A stretch of 30,036 nt of DNA from a virus: positions 1-30,036 of IMG/VR virus record IMGVR_UViG_3300027734_000233. One strand, written 5' to 3'. Positions 14,524 to 30,036 of this stretch are shown one piece after another. The position numbers and the translations under genes were made by a program. Each line of letters begins with the position of its first letter. The stretch's first letter is position 1. The notes under the pieces are model-generated. The model saw only the letters and a program-made list of their open reading frames with translations, had not been told where the DNA came from and made no database searches.

Positions 14524-15161
14524 GCGGCCCCCACGAGCGCACGGTACACGGCGCGTGTGACCTCGACGTCCTGGAGGCAGTAAGCGGCGATCTCGTCGCG
14601 GCTTCCGGCGAGCCACATGTCCCACACCTGCGACCCGTCGCCCGACTTGCCCTCGAGGCCAAGGGCCGTGGCGAGGTCCCCGAGACGGCATCGCTCCGCA
14701 CCCATCGCGAGCCGCATGGTGTCTTGCACGGCGTGTCGGTGGCCTCGGTACTCGCAGAGGCGACGAGCCAGCGACGGCAGCGTGCGTGCGGCAGCGATGT
14801 GGAGACGCGGCAGGTCGAAGCCGACGATGTTGTGCCCGACGATCGTGTCGGGCGCGTACTGCACGAGGATCGCGTCCAGTTCTCCGAGCATCTTCCGCTC
14901 GCCATGCTCGTCCAGCATGATGACGGTACGCTCCTGGACGTCGTGGCCGATCTCCACGATCACGCCGATGCAGCAGATGCGCGCATAGCGCCAGTCGAGC
15001 GCCGTGCGAAGCCACTGCTCCATGCGGTGCTCCTCGACCCATTTGGCGATGGACTCGGGCTTCGTGTAGTTCCCTGGCACGCTCGCCAGCGCGTGCGCGT
15101 CAACCTGCTCGTCCGTCCATGCGGCTGGAAGCGTCTCAATGTCTAGGTAGAGTGTGGTCAT
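14520..15161 (-). CDS. DnaQ-like DEDDy 3'-5' exonuclease
   Basis: This 213-residue protein has the DEDD exonuclease motifs: YLDIET (D7, E9), GHNIVGFDLPRL (D116) and YCLQDVE (Y194, D198, the YxxxD of the DEDDy type). It is closest by pattern to the PolB-exonuclease-like family (DNA_pol_B_exo2). It would trim DNA 3' ends with two metal ions. It lies directly downstream of the ERF annealase, behind GAGGAGCACTACC. The pairing suggests a recombination or end-processing role for phage DNA. No polymerase domain is fused. Confidence 0.88.
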   Translation of the reverse strand: MTTLYLDIETLPAAWTDEQVDAHALASVPGNYTKPESIAKWVEEHRMEQWLRTALDWRYARICCIGVIVEIGHDVQERTVIMLDEHGERKMLGELDAILVQYAPDTIVGHNIVGFDLPRLHIAAARTLPSLARRLCEYRGHRHAVQDTMRLAMGAERCRLGDLATALGLEGKSGDGSQVWDMWLAGSRDEIAAYCLQDVEVTRAVYRALVGAA

Positions 15162-18130: not shown

Positions 18131-18292
18131 ATGGAAGGAATCAAGTGCTCCTGCGGGAGCGAAGAAGTCGTGCGTCTTTACGGAGAGGTCGCGCGTCTGA
18201 AGGCGAACCTCGACCGCGCGCTGCGTGAGGTGCGCGACCAGGAGCGCGAGAACGCGGCGCTGCGTCGTCGGCTGAAGGAAGGCGGGCGGTGA
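18131..18292 (+). CDS. 53-residue coiled-coil protein with CxC motif
   Basis: The ATG at 18131 gives a short protein that starts MEGIKCSCGSEEVVRL. A charged heptad-like helix follows (VARLKANLDRALREVRDQER) and the chain ends RRRLKEGGR. The stop overlaps the methyltransferase GTG by four bases, which supports real translation. The CxC at the N-terminus could bind metal or form part of a dimer. There is no known family. Confidence 0.6.
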   Translation: MEGIKCSCGSEEVVRLYGEVARLKANLDRALREVRDQERENAALRRRLKEGGR

Positions 18293-19320
18293 GGTATCTC
18301 TCCGTCTGCTCGGGCATCGAGGCCGCGTCTGTCGCATGGCATCCGCTCGGATGGGAGCCTGCGGCGTTCTGCGAGATCGAAGCCTTCCCGTCTGCGGTGC
18401 TCGCGCACCGATACCCCAACGTGCCCAACTATGGCGACTTTACGAGGCTCACCGATGCAGCTCACCCTATTCACGACGCCGGCATCGACCTCCTCGTCGG
18501 AGGCACGCCATGCCAAGCATTCTCCGTCGCAGGACTGCGGCAGGGATTGGCCGACGCTCGCGGTGGCCTCGCGTTGGAGTACGTCCGCTTGGCTCGCGCA
18601 CTTAGCCCGCGATGGCTCCTCTGGGAAAACGTCCCTGGCGTCCTGTCATCAGGACAGGGACGGGACTTTGGTGCCTTCGTCGGGGCGCTGGTTGAGAGCG
18701 GGTATGGCGTCGCTTGGCGGGTGCTGGACGCTCAACTTGTGCGAGTGGACGGATACGCTGGTGCCGTCCCACAGCGACGGAAGCGTGTGTTCGTTGTCGG
18801 ATGTGCTGGAGGAGACGCAGCTCGTGCCGCAGCGGTTCTTTTTGAGCCCGAGGGCGTGCGCCGGGATTCTGCGCCGCGCCGAGAGACGAGGAAAGGAGCT
18901 GCCTCCGATGCTGCTGGAGGCTTTGAGGTCTGTGGCACACTCTCCGACGGAGCGCACCACGGAGGAGGACTGAACGGTCAAGACGCCTACACGGGGCGTG
19001 TGCTTCCGGTCGCCTTCGACACGTACAACCACGCCGTGTCGCATGTCTGCCAGACCATCAAGTCGCCTAGCGGTGGCGCGAACGAGAGTGTCGGTACAGT
19101 GCTCACATCAATGGCCGTCCGTCGCCTCACGCCGACCGAGTGCGAGCGGCTGCAAGGCTTCCCTGACGGATGGACGGCCATACCGTGGAAGAGCAAGCCG
19201 GCCAGCGAGTGTCCCTATGGGCCGCGGTACAAAGCTCTGGGCAACTCGATGGCCTGCAACGTGATGCGCTGGATCGGCACGCGGATCGCGATGGTGGATG
19301 CTGCTGTAGGTGGAGCATGA
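18289..19320 (+). CDS. dcm: DNA cytosine-5 methyltransferase (orphan, Dcm-like)
   Basis: The GTG start overlaps the previous stop by four bases, giving 343 residues. C5-methyltransferase motifs are in order: I LSVCSGIEAASVAW (SAM binding), IV GGTPCQAFSVAG (catalytic C75), VI WENVPGV, VIII QRRKRVFVVG, IX RRLTPTECERLQGFPDGW and X YKALGNSM. The target-recognition region (about 185-280) is short and low-complexity. It would methylate phage DNA, most likely against host restriction; no cognate nuclease is present. Its central part is also read in a second frame by another gene. Confidence 0.95.
   Translation: MRYLSVCSGIEAASVAWHPLGWEPAAFCEIEAFPSAVLAHRYPNVPNYGDFTRLTDAAHPIHDAGIDLLVGGTPCQAFSVAGLRQGLADARGGLALEYVRLARALSPRWLLWENVPGVLSSGQGRDFGAFVGALVESGYGVAWRVLDAQLVRVDGYAGAVPQRRKRVFVVGCAGGDAARAAAVLFEPEGVRRDSAPRRETRKGAASDAAGGFEVCGTLSDGAHHGGGLNGQDAYTGRVLPVAFDTYNHAVSHVCQTIKSPSGGANESVGTVLTSMAVRRLTPTECERLQGFPDGWTAIPWKSKPASECPYGPRYKALGNSMACNVMRWIGTRIAMVDAAVGGA
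18455..18973 (+). CDS. Overprinted gene inside the methyltransferase (RFFLSPRACAGILRRA family)
   Basis: In the +1 frame relative to dcm, the ATG at 18455 (GAGG upstream; an earlier ATG is at 18431) gives 172 residues. The product begins MQLTLFTTPA, contains DGTLVPSSGRW and CWTLNLCEW, and ends with VCSLSDVLE and QRFFLSPRACAGILRRAERR followed by GKELP. From memory, this C-terminal signature recurs in phage and prophage proteins annotated as hypothetical, often beside cytosine methyltransferases, so this frame looks truly coding. It spans methyltransferase residues 56-228, including motifs IV to VIII. Function is unknown. Confidence 0.68.
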   Translation: MQLTLFTTPASTSSSEARHAKHSPSQDCGRDWPTLAVASRWSTSAWLAHLARDGSSGKTSLASCHQDRDGTLVPSSGRWLRAGMASLGGCWTLNLCEWTDTLVPSHSDGSVCSLSDVLEETQLVPQRFFLSPRACAGILRRAERRGKELPPMLLEALRSVAHSPTERTTEED

Positions 19321-20207
19321 GGCCGTCGATCTCCACGCTGACCGGAGCCTTCGGCGTCGTGCCTGTTGCGCTGGCGACCTGCGACGAGGTGCAGGAGCTG
19401 CCTCTTCGTGCACTGCGCGTCTACCTCGTCCTGCTCTCGCGGTTCAATGCCAAGCGCGACGGATGGTCGTGGAGCAAGGCCGCGTTCGCGCGCGACACGG
19501 GCGTGCATCGCGACCACATCGGCGAGGTCATCAAGCGCCTCGAGGCTTCTGGCCTGCTCGCCGTCGAGCGTGGTCACGGACTCGTCTCGAGTCATTACCG
19601 GCTCACGGTGCCGCCCAGCCTGACGGTAGGGGAGGGGGCCAGTTTGGCCCCCACGGTGGGGGCTGGTTTAGCCCCCTCCCCCCTGCACGCTACCTCTGAA
19701 CTGGCCCCCAGGGTGGGGGCTGATTTGGCCCCCAGGGTGGGGGCTAGTTTGGCCCCCACATTACACAGAGATCACACAGAGGTCACAACAGAACCCCCTT
19801 ACCCCCACAGCGAGCCGGATCCGGTCAACCCCCCTAGCCCCCCTGCAAGCAGGGGGGGACAGAATGAGCCTTCGTTCAGTGAGGGGAGCAAGTTCCCGCT
19901 GCCGGAACGGTACAACAAGGTGAAGCGACCGCCTGGCCCATGGCAGAACCGGCAGGCTCCTGCGCCTGCGCCAGAGGTGCCCGTTGCTCGCACGGAAACG
20001 GCCTCTCCTGCCGACCTGATCCGTCAGGTGGCTCGCGACCTAGGCGTGCGTCCACGCGAGGCCAAGAAGCATCTGGCGAGGCAGGAGGCGGGTGCGGTCG
20101 AACGCGAGCGAACCGAGCGCCACGGGGCACCGAGCGCGCTGACGGTCGATGACGAGATCCTCCGCGAGATGCGCGAGCTTTACGGCTGGCCGCGCGGTGA
20201 TGCTTGA
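19317..20207 (+). CDS. Winged-helix replication initiator (lambda O-like organisation)
   Basis: This 296-residue protein has an ATG overlapping the dcm stop by four bases. Residues 15-100 form a winged HTH: LPLRALRVYLVLLSRFN, WSWSKAAFARDTGVHRDHIG, EVIKRLEASGLLAVERG. The middle (about 105-150) is an eight-residue peptide repeat (VGAxLAPR) encoded by palindromic DNA repeats. A Pro-rich linker follows, then a charged C-terminal domain (ADLIRQVARDLGVRPREAKK) that may contact a helicase or loader. The arrangement matches lambda O, whose gene contains the origin. No helicase loader is recognised nearby, so host proteins may be recruited directly. Confidence 0.7.
   Translation: MRPSISTLTGAFGVVPVALATCDEVQELPLRALRVYLVLLSRFNAKRDGWSWSKAAFARDTGVHRDHIGEVIKRLEASGLLAVERGHGLVSSHYRLTVPPSLTVGEGASLAPTVGAGLAPSPLHATSELAPRVGADLAPRVGASLAPTLHRDHTEVTTEPPYPHSEPDPVNPPSPPASRGGQNEPSFSEGSKFPLPERYNKVKRPPGPWQNRQAPAPAPEVPVARTETASPADLIRQVARDLGVRPREAKKHLARQEAGAVERERTERHGAPSALTVDDEILREMRELYGWPRGDA
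19634..19757. repeat. Palindromic iterons, probable replication origin
   Basis: Four near-identical 19-bp palindromes of form GGGGGCY-RRTTT-GGCCCCC start at 19634, 19658, 19715 and 19739. A fifth at 19691 keeps only the right arm. Neighbouring units are 24 bp apart (8 codons), except for a 33-bp step from the second to the third. They lie within the winged-helix initiator gene, as lambda iterons lie within O, so the initiator probably binds them. Confidence 0.75.
19763..19857. other. A-rich direct repeats and hairpin beside the iterons
   Basis: Immediately after the iterons two tandem 11-bp repeats (ACACAGAGATC, ACACAGAGGTC; 19763-19784) lie in the least GC-rich part of this gene, a candidate unwinding element. 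A perfect 9-bp hairpin follows at 19838-19857 (CCCCCCTGC-AA-GCAGGGGGG). Confidence 0.5.
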
Positions 20208-20209
20208 CG

Positions 20210-20226
20210 TCGGCACGCCGTGCCGA
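20210..20226. promoter_or_regulatory. Palindrome after the initiator gene
   Basis: A perfect 8-bp inverted repeat, TCGGCACG-C-CGTGCCGA, directly follows a TTGACG box (20204-20209). It could be an operator over a weak promoter or a short terminator. No good -10 box is seen. Confidence 0.4.
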
Positions 20227-20268
20227 TACGGCATCGAAGCAGGGGCTGCTAGGGGTCGCTGTCGTGTG

Positions 20269-20308
20269 GATAGGCGCGTCGGCAGATGGTCTGCCGGCGT
20301 GGCCTATC
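20269..20308 (+). promoter_or_regulatory. Two-tier stem-loop in the ssb leader
   Basis: An outer 7-bp stem GATAGGC/GCCTATC encloses a small internal loop and an inner 7-bp stem CGGCAGA-TGG-TCTGCCG. It ends about ten bases before the ssb Shine-Dalgarno (TAGGAG). It could be an RNA element controlling ssb translation or a protein-binding site. Confidence 0.55.
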
Positions 20309-20329
20309 TGCGTCTGTTAGGAGCGAACT

Positions 20330-20716
20330 ATGATCAACAAGGTGATCCTCGTCGGCAACCTCGGGCAAGACCCGGAGACTCGGCACACGAACGGCGGCAA
20401 CAGCGTCACGCAGCTTCGCCTCGCCACGACCGAAAAGTTCAAGGATCGCGACGGCGCCATGCAAGAGCGGACCGAGTGGCACACGGTGATCGTGTGGGGC
20501 AAGCAGGGCGAGGCGTGCGGAAAGCACCTGACCAAGGGCCGGCAGGTCTACGTCGAGGGCCGGCTCACGACTCGCAAGTGGCAGGACAAGGAAGGCAAGG
20601 ACCGCTACACGACCGAGGTCATCGGCGACAACGTGCGCTTCCTCGGTGGCTCGCCTGGTGAGCGGCGTGAGGCAGCGCCTGCCGACGATCTCGGCTACGG
20701 TAACGGGCCGTGGTGA
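20330..20716 (+). CDS. ssb: Single-stranded DNA-binding protein
   Basis: This 128-residue protein has the bacterial-type OB fold: [20 protein letters not shown], then [47 protein letters not shown] and a final strand. It would coat phage single strands during replication. The C-terminal tail is short and ends [10 protein letters not shown], not the usual DDDIPF tip that recruits host proteins. An Asp pair and terminal Pro-aromatic are kept, so the tip may be a variant. It overlaps the next gene by four bases. Confidence 0.95.
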
Positions 20717-20997
20717 AGGTCAAGTTCGAGGTCATCGCCGGCGGGCCGTGGCTCGGCTGGACTACGTGGGACCAGTACGGTCGCGCGGTCGAGGACGTCA
20801 CGCTGGACACCATGTCGGTGACGTCCATTCACTCGCGGTACGATGGCGTCACGCGGGTCATCACGACGACGAGCGTGCTGCTCGTGCATGAGACGATCAG
20901 CCAGGTCACGCGCTGGGTCATCGCAGCTCGACGCGGGCTGGCGCATGCTGACGAGGTCTACGCTGAGGATGTGCCGCACCCGGAGGCGACCGAATGA
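20713..20997 (+). CDS. Hypothetical protein after ssb
   Basis: The GTG at 20713 overlaps the ssb stop (GTGA), giving 94 residues; a GTG at 20710 is an alternative. It is a beta-rich protein with two Trp-rich turns ([14 protein letters not shown]) and a helical C-terminus that ends acidic ([10 protein letters not shown]). No family is recognised. Its tight coupling to ssb suggests a replication-linked role. Confidence 0.65.
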
Positions 20998-21497
20998 GCG
21001 ACCGTCTTCGCGCACAGCCGCTCACGCTCGCGCAGGCGAATGAGCTCGTCGCGCAGCTGCACAGGCATCACAAGCCGACGCGCGGTCATCGCTTCTCGAT
21101 CGGAGCATACGACGGCGACCGGTTCGTCGGTGCGGTCATCGTCGGTCGGCCTGTCGCTCGCATGGTCGATCAGTACGCCGTGGCTGAGGTCACGCGCCTC
21201 GTGACGGACGGCACGCGCAACGCATGCAGCTTCCTGTACGGACGCGCTGCTCAGGCCGCGCAGGCGATGGGCTTTGAGTCCATACAGACGTACACGCTGC
21301 CGGAAGAAGGCGGCGCTTCGCTGCGCGCTGTCGGCTGGGAGTGTGATGGCGTCGTCAGGCGCGACGGTCACGGCTGGCAGAGCCGCGAAGGTCGGCGTGA
21401 TGACCAGCCTACGCAGGCCAAGGTCAGGTGGAGACGCACGCTAAACGCGCCGAGAAAGGGCGTGTATACCGACGGACCCCCCCCCGACCCTACGTAG
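20994..21497 (+). CDS. XF1762-family protein (GNAT-like)
   Basis: This 167-residue protein starts with an ATGA overlap. It matches the phage family often annotated as XF1762: LTLAQANELVAQLHRHHKPT, then FSIGAYDGDRFVGAVIVGRP, EVTRLVTDGTRNACSFLYGR and YTLPEEGGASLRAVGW. The pattern resembles a GNAT acyltransferase fold; the substrate of the family is, to my knowledge, not established. It lies at the end of the early block, just before the terminase genes, as related genes often do. The C-terminal 25 residues are basic and Pro-rich. Confidence 0.75.
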   Translation: MSDRLRAQPLTLAQANELVAQLHRHHKPTRGHRFSIGAYDGDRFVGAVIVGRPVARMVDQYAVAEVTRLVTDGTRNACSFLYGRAAQAAQAMGFESIQTYTLPEEGGASLRAVGWECDGVVRRDGHGWQSREGRRDDQPTQAKVRWRRTLNAPRKGVYTDGPPPDPT

Positions 21498-27933: not shown

Positions 27934-28695
27934 ATGTCCCTCGCAGAGACGGTCTACGCTGCTCGGTTCCGCTCGACGGAGACGATCGAGCGTGGACGCC
28001 AGCAGACGCTCACATGCCCGACCCAGCGTGCAGGCGCCACGGCCACGCCGACGAGTGGGACGATCACGATCTACCGGCCTGACCAGACGGTTCTCGTGAC
28101 GTCCGCAGTCACGATCCCCGGAGGCGGGATCGCTACCTACTCGCTGGCTGCGGCGACCACGACGGCCGAGCAGCTCGGCGAGGGCTGGCTCGTTGAGTGG
28201 GCGCTGGTGATGCCGGATGCGGTGACGCACACGTTTAGGAACGATGCGGCGCTTTGCCGCAGAACCCTCTATCCAGTCGTCGCAGATGCCGACCTGACGC
28301 AGCGTCACAGCGACCTTCCCAACCTGCTCGCGTCGGGCACGACGTCATACCAGGCCTACCTGGACGAGGCGTTCGCCACGATCGGGAACCGGCTCATCTC
28401 GCAGGGGCGCCGGCCGTACCTGGTGATCCAGCCCAGCGCCCTGCGCGAGGCGCACGTTGCGATGACACTGCACTTGATCTTCCTCGACTTCTCGACGTCG
28501 GCCGGCGACTCGGGACGCTGGCAGGCGCTCGCGGATCACTACATGCGCGCGTACACCGAGGCGTGGAACCAGCTCAAGTTTACCTATGACGAGACTGACG
28601 CCAACAAGGTGGACGCCACGATGAAGAAGGGCGCAGCCTCGACGGTGTGGCTCAACGGGCGCGGTGGACAAAACTACTGGACGCGGTGGTACTGA
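27934..28695 (+). CDS. Head-tail connector protein (allele B, complete)
   Basis: This 253-residue protein follows GGAGG. The N-terminal part (about residues 20-80) is a beta-rich domain (GTITIYRPDQTVLVTSAVTI). The middle and C-terminal part is helical (YQAYLDEAFATIGNRLISQG, then ALREAHVAMTLHLIFLDFST), ending NYWTRWY. The position after capsid and before tail terminator suggests a head-tail adaptor or neck protein; no firm family motif is seen. It is the full-length version of the truncated gene at the window start. Confidence 0.7.
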   Translation: MSLAETVYAARFRSTETIERGRQQTLTCPTQRAGATATPTSGTITIYRPDQTVLVTSAVTIPGGGIATYSLAAATTTAEQLGEGWLVEWALVMPDAVTHTFRNDAALCRRTLYPVVADADLTQRHSDLPNLLASGTTSYQAYLDEAFATIGNRLISQGRRPYLVIQPSALREAHVAMTLHLIFLDFSTSAGDSGRWQALADHYMRAYTEAWNQLKFTYDETDANKVDATMKKGAASTVWLNGRGGQNYWTRWY

Positions 28696-29138
28696 TGGCT
28701 GCGAAGAGCATCCGTCAGTTGCGCGAGGACGTCACTGCGCGCATCCTCACGCTCACGGGCTGGAAGGAGTCGAGGGTCGCGCCGGATAACTTCGGCCGTG
28801 ACGCTGACAGCATCGCGCACAAGGCATTCGCGGTGCATCCGGCAGAGACGGCCGACATGCGCGCGTACCGTGGCCGGCCTGCCGAGGGCCTCCTGGTCGA
28901 GACGTCGCTCGTCGTCCACTACTGTTGGCGCCTCGCGCCGAAGGGCATGAGCGACTCCTACGATGACGCACTCGATGGAGAGGCCGCAGTCGTCAACGTC
29001 CTGATGGCCTACGATGCATCGTGGCCTCTGTCCTACAAGGTGCAGGTCGTTCGCACCACGCGCACCACATCGGATAGTGGCGAGTGGGTGCTCGGGCAGG
29101 TCGAGACTCGGATCGTACACACACTTCCACTTCAATAG
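28695..29138 (+). CDS. Tail terminator-like protein (allele B)
   Basis: This 147-residue counterpart of 604-1047 has the same one-base start overlap and 12 substitutions, several of them conservative. The shared core includes RVAPDNFGRDADSIAHKAFA and RLAPKGMSDSYDDALDGE. It probably caps the tail tube and joins it to the head, by position before the tube gene. Both copies end in HTLPLQ. Confidence 0.62.
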   Translation: MAAKSIRQLREDVTARILTLTGWKESRVAPDNFGRDADSIAHKAFAVHPAETADMRAYRGRPAEGLLVETSLVVHYCWRLAPKGMSDSYDDALDGEAAVVNVLMAYDASWPLSYKVQVVRTTRTTSDSGEWVLGQVETRIVHTLPLQ

Positions 29139-29147
29139 GGGGATCTC

Positions 29148-29642
29148 ATGGCCGCTTCGACGGTGATCAAGAACTTTCGCGATGCAACCGTGATTTTCGC
29201 AGACGGCACTACGCCGACTCCGCTCTCTCTGACGCTCGCGCTGGAGGCTGGCGATCTCGCGCTCTCCGGTCTCAGCGAGAGCAATACCGAGGTCACGACG
29301 TACCTCGACCGTGGCGAGCTCGCGACCGTCAGGAAGACGAACCGCTCGTTCCCGACCGTGAGTATGACTTGTTCGATGGCAGATCTGAGTGATGCCACCG
29401 ACAAGCTGATCTGGGACGCGGTCAACAAGACCGGCGCCTTTGCCAGCGCGGTCAGCACGATCAGCGGTTCGGATGCGTTCGGACTCAAGATCACTGTCAC
29501 AATTGAAGGCACCAACTTCGGGGATTCGGCGGATCACACCATCGTCATGAACGGTGTTCACTGCTCGATCGACTTCGCCGAGGGCGACCCGAACACCTTC
29601 ACGATCAACGGCACGGTGTACGGCAGCATCACCGCGACCTGA
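29148..29642 (+). CDS. Major tail tube protein (allele B)
   Basis: This 164-residue counterpart of 1057-1551 has only about 57% amino-acid identity. Conserved islands are KNFRD, TTYLDRG, DLSDAT, WDAVNKTG, EGDPN and GSITA; the surface-like positions between them differ. It has the same Shine-Dalgarno (AGGGGGATCTC). The high divergence beside conserved neighbours points to allele replacement or strong selection on the tube. Confidence 0.72.
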   Translation: MAASTVIKNFRDATVIFADGTTPTPLSLTLALEAGDLALSGLSESNTEVTTYLDRGELATVRKTNRSFPTVSMTCSMADLSDATDKLIWDAVNKTGAFASAVSTISGSDAFGLKITVTIEGTNFGDSADHTIVMNGVHCSIDFAEGDPNTFTINGTVYGSITAT

Positions 29643-29671
29643 TCCACGCTCAAGGTCGAACATCTCGCACG

Positions 29672-29704
29672 ACGCCCTCCCTGCCGGTTAGGCTCGGAGG
29701 GCGT
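29672..29704 (+). terminator. Stem-loop between tail tube and chaperone genes (allele B)
   Basis: This is identical over 33 bases to the hairpin at 1581-1613, although the bases on both sides differ. It is the same candidate terminator or processing site. Confidence 0.65.
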
Positions 29705-29720
29705 TTCATTCGGAGGGAAT

Positions 29721-30036
29721 ATGGACGTTACGCTCGGTCGGTTCACCATCGCGCTCAAGAAGCCCGCATCGTTCACGCTCGCCCGTGAGGTCACGATGGC
29801 CGTTGGCACGAGCGCCATTCGCGGACTCGGCGCCGCGCTCGGCGCGTGCTGGGGCGGGAAGCCTCTCAAGGCCAAGTACGCCTACGATGCCCTTGCCTAC
29901 GGTGGCGCGGTCGTTGACGAGCTCATGGCGCTCGGCGTGCCGGAAGCGGAGATCTATGCGGCCGGCAAGATCGCCCTCGACCTGGTGATCGACAGCCTCC
30001 CACGCGAGGAGGCCGTCGCGCAGGCCGAGACTTTTA
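29721..30036 (+). CDS. Tail assembly chaperone, 3'-truncated (allele B)
   Basis: The first 105 codons of the gpG-like chaperone are present, cut by the window end exactly at the CTTTTA run proposed as the slip site. Before 29910 it differs from the other copy (for example A16, A27, G45); from 29910 to the end it is base-identical to 1819-1945. GGAGGGAAT precedes the ATG. Confidence 0.75.
   Translation, partial: MDVTLGRFTIALKKPASFTLAREVTMAVGTSAIRGLGAALGACWGGKPLKAKYAYDALAYGGAVVDELMALGVPEAEIYAAGKIALDLVIDSLPREEAVAQAETF
29910..30036 (+). repeat. 127-bp exact repeat, terminal copy
   Basis: This pairs with 1819-1945. It ends flush with the window edge, which implies the sequence continues at 1946 in a circular or permuted genome of 28,091 bp. 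Confidence 0.97.

Follow-up and report, generated by a model that had tools for sequence, protein, structure and literature searches.

The window analysed here is the whole of the virus record IMGVR_UViG_3300027734_000233, 30,036 bases of about 66% GC that come from an uncultured tailed phage. Profile searches recognise tape measure, tail, terminase, ERF annealing protein, RusA, cytosine methylase, SSB and Mom-like genes among its contents. The two ends of the record (1-1945 and 28092-30036) are homologous over 1945 bp at 79% identity and a constant offset of 28,091 bp, a pattern that would arise if the genome is circular or permuted and the assembly continued past its starting point into sequence of another strain. 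The gene for an O-like replication initiator of 296 amino acids, P0001, is flanked by the cytosine methylase and SSB genes, and within the initiator gene lies an array of palindromic repeats followed by short tandem repeats and an inverted repeat. The features that we discuss are as follows.

19308..19815, plus strand: block of about 508 bp (DNA-binding domain, iterons and 11-mers) that is 95% identical in one related contig, with flanks diverged or absent
19317..20207, plus strand: gene for the O-like replication initiator P0001 (296 aa), matching PF13730 and phrog_270/391/678
19389..19610, plus strand: winged-helix DNA-binding domain (DBD), about residues 25-98, from the AlphaFold2 model and a profile match
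19634..19652, no strand: iteron 1, GGGGGCCAGTTTGGCCCCC, exact GGGGGC-N7-GCCCCC palindrome
19658..19676, no strand: iteron 2, GGGGGCTGGTTTAGCCCCC, exact palindrome of the same form
19691..19709, no strand: half iteron with the right arm only (GCCCCC at 19704-19709), in register 24 bp before iteron 3
19715..19733, no strand: iteron 3, GGGGGCTGATTTGGCCCCC, exact palindrome of the same form
19739..19757, no strand: iteron 4, GGGGGCTAGTTTGGCCCCC, exact palindrome of the same form
19760..19792, no strand: three tandem 11-bp repeats, ATTACACAGAG / ATCACACAGAG / GTCACAACAGA, proposed DNA unwinding element
19838..19857, no strand: hairpin or 20-bp inverted repeat, CCCCCCTGC-AA-GCAGGGGGG, role unproven
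20007..20183, plus strand: predicted helical C-terminal domain, about residues 231-289 (AlphaFold2 helices 231-242, 246-269 and 279-289)
20710-20994, downstream of the initiator gene: 95-aa ORF of no recognised family

Several neighbouring features were recorded alongside these. The cytosine methylase gene (18289-19320) is a clean cassette: in the related contig L011 it is missing, and the upstream gene abuts the initiator gene directly. As L011 cleanly lacks the methylase gene and keeps the iterons, we rejected a role for the methylase. A Mom-like DNA modification gene lies in the same region (20994-21497; phrog_1384, E 1.4e-33). Between the initiator and SSB genes there is a large imperfect inverted repeat (20267-20312), and the strand at 20205-20335 folds far better than shuffles (z -5.2); the inverted repeat might serve as a terminator or as a primosome site.

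An earlier note, made from the letters of this DNA, had taken the repeats for iterons of a probable origin lying within the initiator gene, on the model of lambda O, and its description of them proved accurate. All four 19-bp palindromes are exact, the fifth unit is half degenerate, and the spacing it had given as mainly 24 bp resolves into steps of 24, 33, 24 and 24 bp, all multiples of 3, with the 33-bp step falling around the half unit. Counted from the start of the gene, the iterons occupy positions of about 320-440 bp; they correspond to residues 106-147, and their translation runs VGEGASLAPT-VGAGLAPS-...SELAPR-VGADLAPR-VGASLAPT, close to the repeating linker peptide VGAxLAPR that had been proposed (actual units include VGADLAPR and VGAGLAPS). 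No further GGGGGC-N7-GCCCCC palindrome occurs in the 30-kb record, where a first-order Markov model fitted to the dinucleotide frequencies of the window predicts 0.002; with no other copy, a dispersed genomic repeat element was rejected. The G runs are separated by 18-52 bp, for which reason a G-quadruplex was discounted.

The 11-bp repeats adjoin the last iteron on its right and lie, as had been noted, in a less GC-rich patch (53% AT). Their tandem signal is reached by none of 100 synonymous-codon shuffles. Nearest-neighbour energies place the 35-bp window that begins at 19760 among the least stable 0.05% of the genome's DNA, and a 45-bp window at the tract among the least stable 0.14%; we propose that the tract is an easily unwound element beside the last iteron. 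The hairpin reported after the repeats is also present, and in the relative L006 it is kept with both arms shortened together, in diverged flanks.

P0001 belongs with phage replication initiators. It matches PF13730 (HTH_36; E 5.5e-6, 26.5 bits, just over the cut-off of 25) and three phage replication-initiation families, phrog_270 (E 1.1e-6), phrog_391 (E 1.6e-4) and phrog_678 (E 3.5e-4), and its DBD profile matches that of ten other phage O-like DBDs (E 1.4e-6). The AlphaFold2 model, built from a five-sequence alignment and of low confidence (mean pLDDT 51), predicts the H-E-H-H-E-E order of a winged helix at residues 30-97 (modest pLDDT, 56-68) and nothing structured at residues 100-230. 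The array is thus encoded within a predicted disordered linker between the N-terminal winged helix and the helical C-terminus, a domain that presumably contacts the helicase or primase. Foldseek returned no match to the model below E 0.001; among its top matches, at E 0.02-0.09, are structures that bear the titles 'Structure of initiator' and 'Structure of Rep-DNA complex', which we take to be pSK41 RepA. Sequence searches found nothing significant among solved structures, no relatives among phage records by tblastn, no relative in cellular genomes and no plasmid relatives by DNA.

Among related viral contigs, repeats stand at the same place in the initiator genes of L005, L006 and L007, which carry the array or the part of it that they cover; L008 ends before the array position. 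One of these relatives (L006/L011, contig 3300020162_001076) aligns to the window at 90% up to 18294, then at 95% across 19308-19815, at about 60% over the C-terminal domain, with identity rising again at 20202. The upstream edge of the block is a cassette difference, since the methylase gene is absent from this contig, and the downstream edge is a change of C-terminal domain: that of L006 has diverged, and its DBD is about 99% identical to that of P0001. The alignment pattern therefore indicates that DBD, iterons and 11-mers are conserved together.

Could the DNA repeats be a mere side effect of tandem duplications within the disordered linker, with no function as DNA? The peptide is indeed repetitive and its segment predicted to be disordered, yet its sequence does not account for the palindromes. 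In 200,000 synonymous recodings with the protein held fixed, no palindrome arose in 198,522, one in 1,476 and two in 2, and four were never obtained. A gentler shuffle that only permutes the linker's existing codons gives four palindromes in 625 of 200,000 cases, since the linker is already rich in GGG and CCC, the rare codons from which the arms are built. Substitutions among the window, L005 and L006, three related phages, tell a similar story. The 312 bp that encode the DBD contain 21 variable sites, 19 synonymous and 2 nonsynonymous, as expected for a constrained protein, whereas the 8 variable sites of the iteron region comprise 1 synonymous and 7 protein-changing ones, with none in the 54 bp of palindrome arms and none in the following 58 bp that hold the 11-mers. 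Fisher tests on these small samples, whose sites are not fully independent and whose counts are low because only two sequence-distinct relatives cover the whole array, give p 1.7e-4 for the DBD against the iteron region (19:2 versus 1:7), p 3.7e-4 for arms plus 11-mer tract against the rest of the iteron region (0/112 bp versus 8/70 bp), p 0.0095 for the arms alone and p 0.056 for the 11-mer tract against the DBD. We saw no relative in which the linker peptide is kept and the palindromes are lost. On this comparison the linker's amino-acid sequence seems to matter little and the constraint acts at the level of DNA, so that a purely protein-level repeat is very improbable.

Two further explanations would give the DNA or its transcript a role apart from replication. 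If the winged-helix protein bound the palindromes solely to control transcription of its own operon, with the origin elsewhere, palindromes typical of dimeric winged-helix repressors would be expected, and P0001 does belong to a DNA-binding protein family. The depth of the sites within the gene is, however, no promoter position, an unstable 11-mer tract follows them, the protein families that P0001 matches are those of replication initiators, and in-gene arrays recur in O-like genes; we consider such operators unlikely. RNA hairpins acting in the early transcript, through antitermination, attenuation or translational control, draw on the fact that each palindrome could fold into a stem topped by a 7-nt loop and that the strand folds better than shuffles (z -2.65). 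That z is modest given the composition, in the minimum-energy fold the iterons pair among themselves instead of giving four separate hairpins, and no Rfam family matches; the 11-mer tract and the joint retention of DBD and repeats would also be left unexplained, and we give this reading very little credence.

We therefore favour the reading that the gene for the phage's own initiator also contains a theta replication origin of the lambda type, at a probability of roughly 0.86. This reading is supported by the initiator family, the domain layout, the confinement of the palindromes to this spot, the exclusion of a protein-level explanation, the substitutions, the duplex stability, the repeats at the same place in relatives, the conservation of DBD and repeats as one block, the in-gene arrays of other initiators and the lambda control. 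Counting against it, the putative unwinding tract is only 53% AT, and no helicase, helicase loader (P-like or DnaC-like) or primase was recognised among the subset of ORFs scanned. The GC-skew inflection that the earlier note had proposed as a check is absent at the locus, the skew passing from 0.049 to 0.032 over 5 kb on each side (25th percentile); the detrended minimum, at 15122, coincides with a change of gene orientation, and we discarded GC skew as an origin marker here. In a lambda control, the skew does shift at the lambda origin.

In the mechanism that we envision, the N-terminal winged helix of P0001 would bind each GGGGGC-N7-GCCCCC palindrome as a dimer, and the bound iterons would assemble an O-some-like complex that melts the weak 11-mer tract on the right-hand side of the array. 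The C-terminal domain could then recruit the host replicative helicase or primase, and the same DNA would double as the code for the disordered linker. Binding, tract opening, helicase loading and actual use of the origin are steps that we infer. A probable origin is thereby placed to the base in an uncultured phage to which nothing in the phage collection searched is closely related, and the array offers a candidate binding site that is open to testing.

To place the array in a wider setting, we compared it with in-gene repeats of other phage initiators. Arrays count here if 5 or fewer of 100 codon shuffles reach them, so that they exceed 95 of 100, in tallies that ignore relatedness: in a non-redundant set of 57 Pseudomonas-type O-like genes, 41 carry them above codon-shuffled controls, and so do 36 of the 41 phrog_2509 genes (L129-L208, from aquatic viral contigs). 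Tandem 10-13-bp repeats pass the shuffle test in only 11/57 and 5/41, respectively, and by this measure the 11-mer tract is therefore recurrent rather than general. The wider sample suggests that O-like initiator genes commonly contain an origin, and that linker repeats can be read from sequence as putative initiator binding sites.

The phrog_2509 genes carry palindromic iterons at 22-bp steps whose half-sites (GGGGGC, GTGCGC, ACGCGC and CTGCGC) vary between lineages and are uniform within an array. The half-site types are told apart by residues at about 108-116, directly before the iterons; at residue 101, L157 has the state that is common among GTGCGC genes, yet it carries G5 iterons and a G5-type segment. 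The link between residues and half-sites may be simple co-inheritance, with four types on related sequences. Such co-varying half-sites are natural material for asking how winged-helix initiators choose their DNA. More speculatively, the block of about 0.5 kb that holds DBD, palindromic iterons and 11-mers could be a cassette that sets specificity and is exchanged between initiators whose C-terminal domains are unrelated, and phage initiators might carry a readable code that links a short protein segment to the iteron half-site; we regard this as possible and rather doubtful.

The closest model for the layout is lambda and the oriL-type origin, ori-lambda, in its gene O. In lambda the iterons are hyphenated inverted repeats of 18-19 bp around an A-tract, each bound by one O dimer, and the lambda AT-rich tract adjoins them (PMC6022878, PMC7466680). 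They are thus of the same palindromic type as those described here, and the suggestion in the earlier note that this is an unusual kind of iteron falls. In both phages the site lies inside the gene, between N-terminal DNA-binding and C-terminal partner domains; in both there are four hyphenated inverted repeats of 18-19 bp with an A/T centre, those in the linker of lambda O standing at steps of 20, 24 and 23 bp in our control. The least stable DNA also lies immediately to the right of the last iteron in each, the least stable 45 bp of lambda gene O starting at 39130, just right of iteron 4 (39101-39118). The phage described here differs in its arms (GGGGGC rather than TCCCTC), in the half iteron and 9-bp offset in its array, in having 11-bp tandem repeats in place of a plain AT-rich tract, and in having no recognisable P gene among the ORFs scanned; unlike lambda O, which matches phrog_277, P0001 has no match to that family at E 0.001.

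Other initiators share parts of this arrangement. Pseudomonas-type O-like initiators (phrog_391) and L042, like P0001, have a winged helix and then in-gene arrays (at steps of 16-22 bp), and in many Pseudomonas-type genes the arrays precede tandem 11-12-bp AGAACC-type repeats, which go beyond shuffles in the 11 genes counted above; these initiators and L042 differ in their half-sites and C-terminal domains. The O-like gene of L042 (1501-2481), from a Pseudoroseomonas deserti prophage, has GGGGGC/GCCCCC repeats and then the 11-bp repeats AGAACCATCAT/AGAACCATCAA/AGAACCATCAG. The phrog_2509 initiators also resemble P0001 in their in-gene palindromic iterons, many with GGGGGC/GCCCCC arms, followed in their case by a purine-rich low-GC tract, and differ in step length and in their CGC-type centres. 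A comparison of P0001 with phrog_2509 by hhalign detects no protein relationship (probability 0.1%), and common ancestry of the two sets of GGGGGC iterons finds no support in it.

Staphylococcal plasmids provide a parallel for the unit as a whole. In the pSK41 RepA_N replicon and the hybrid Rep of pPR9, origin boxes lie inside the rep gene and the origin-encoded linker is dispensable, and in pPR9 a DBD + origin segment of about 500 bp with a PF13730 domain has replaced that of pSK41 (PMC5703833). P0001 resembles the pPR9 protein in its N-terminal PF13730 domain, of the same Pfam family, and in the retention of DBD and putative origin as a unit of about 500 bp; it differs in that those replicons are plasmids with AT-rich Rep boxes, whereas P0001 has no Pfam match to RepA_N and only a weak fold resemblance. 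The array very probably belongs to the lambda-type in-gene origins, a known layout that is seen here in a phage lineage not described before.
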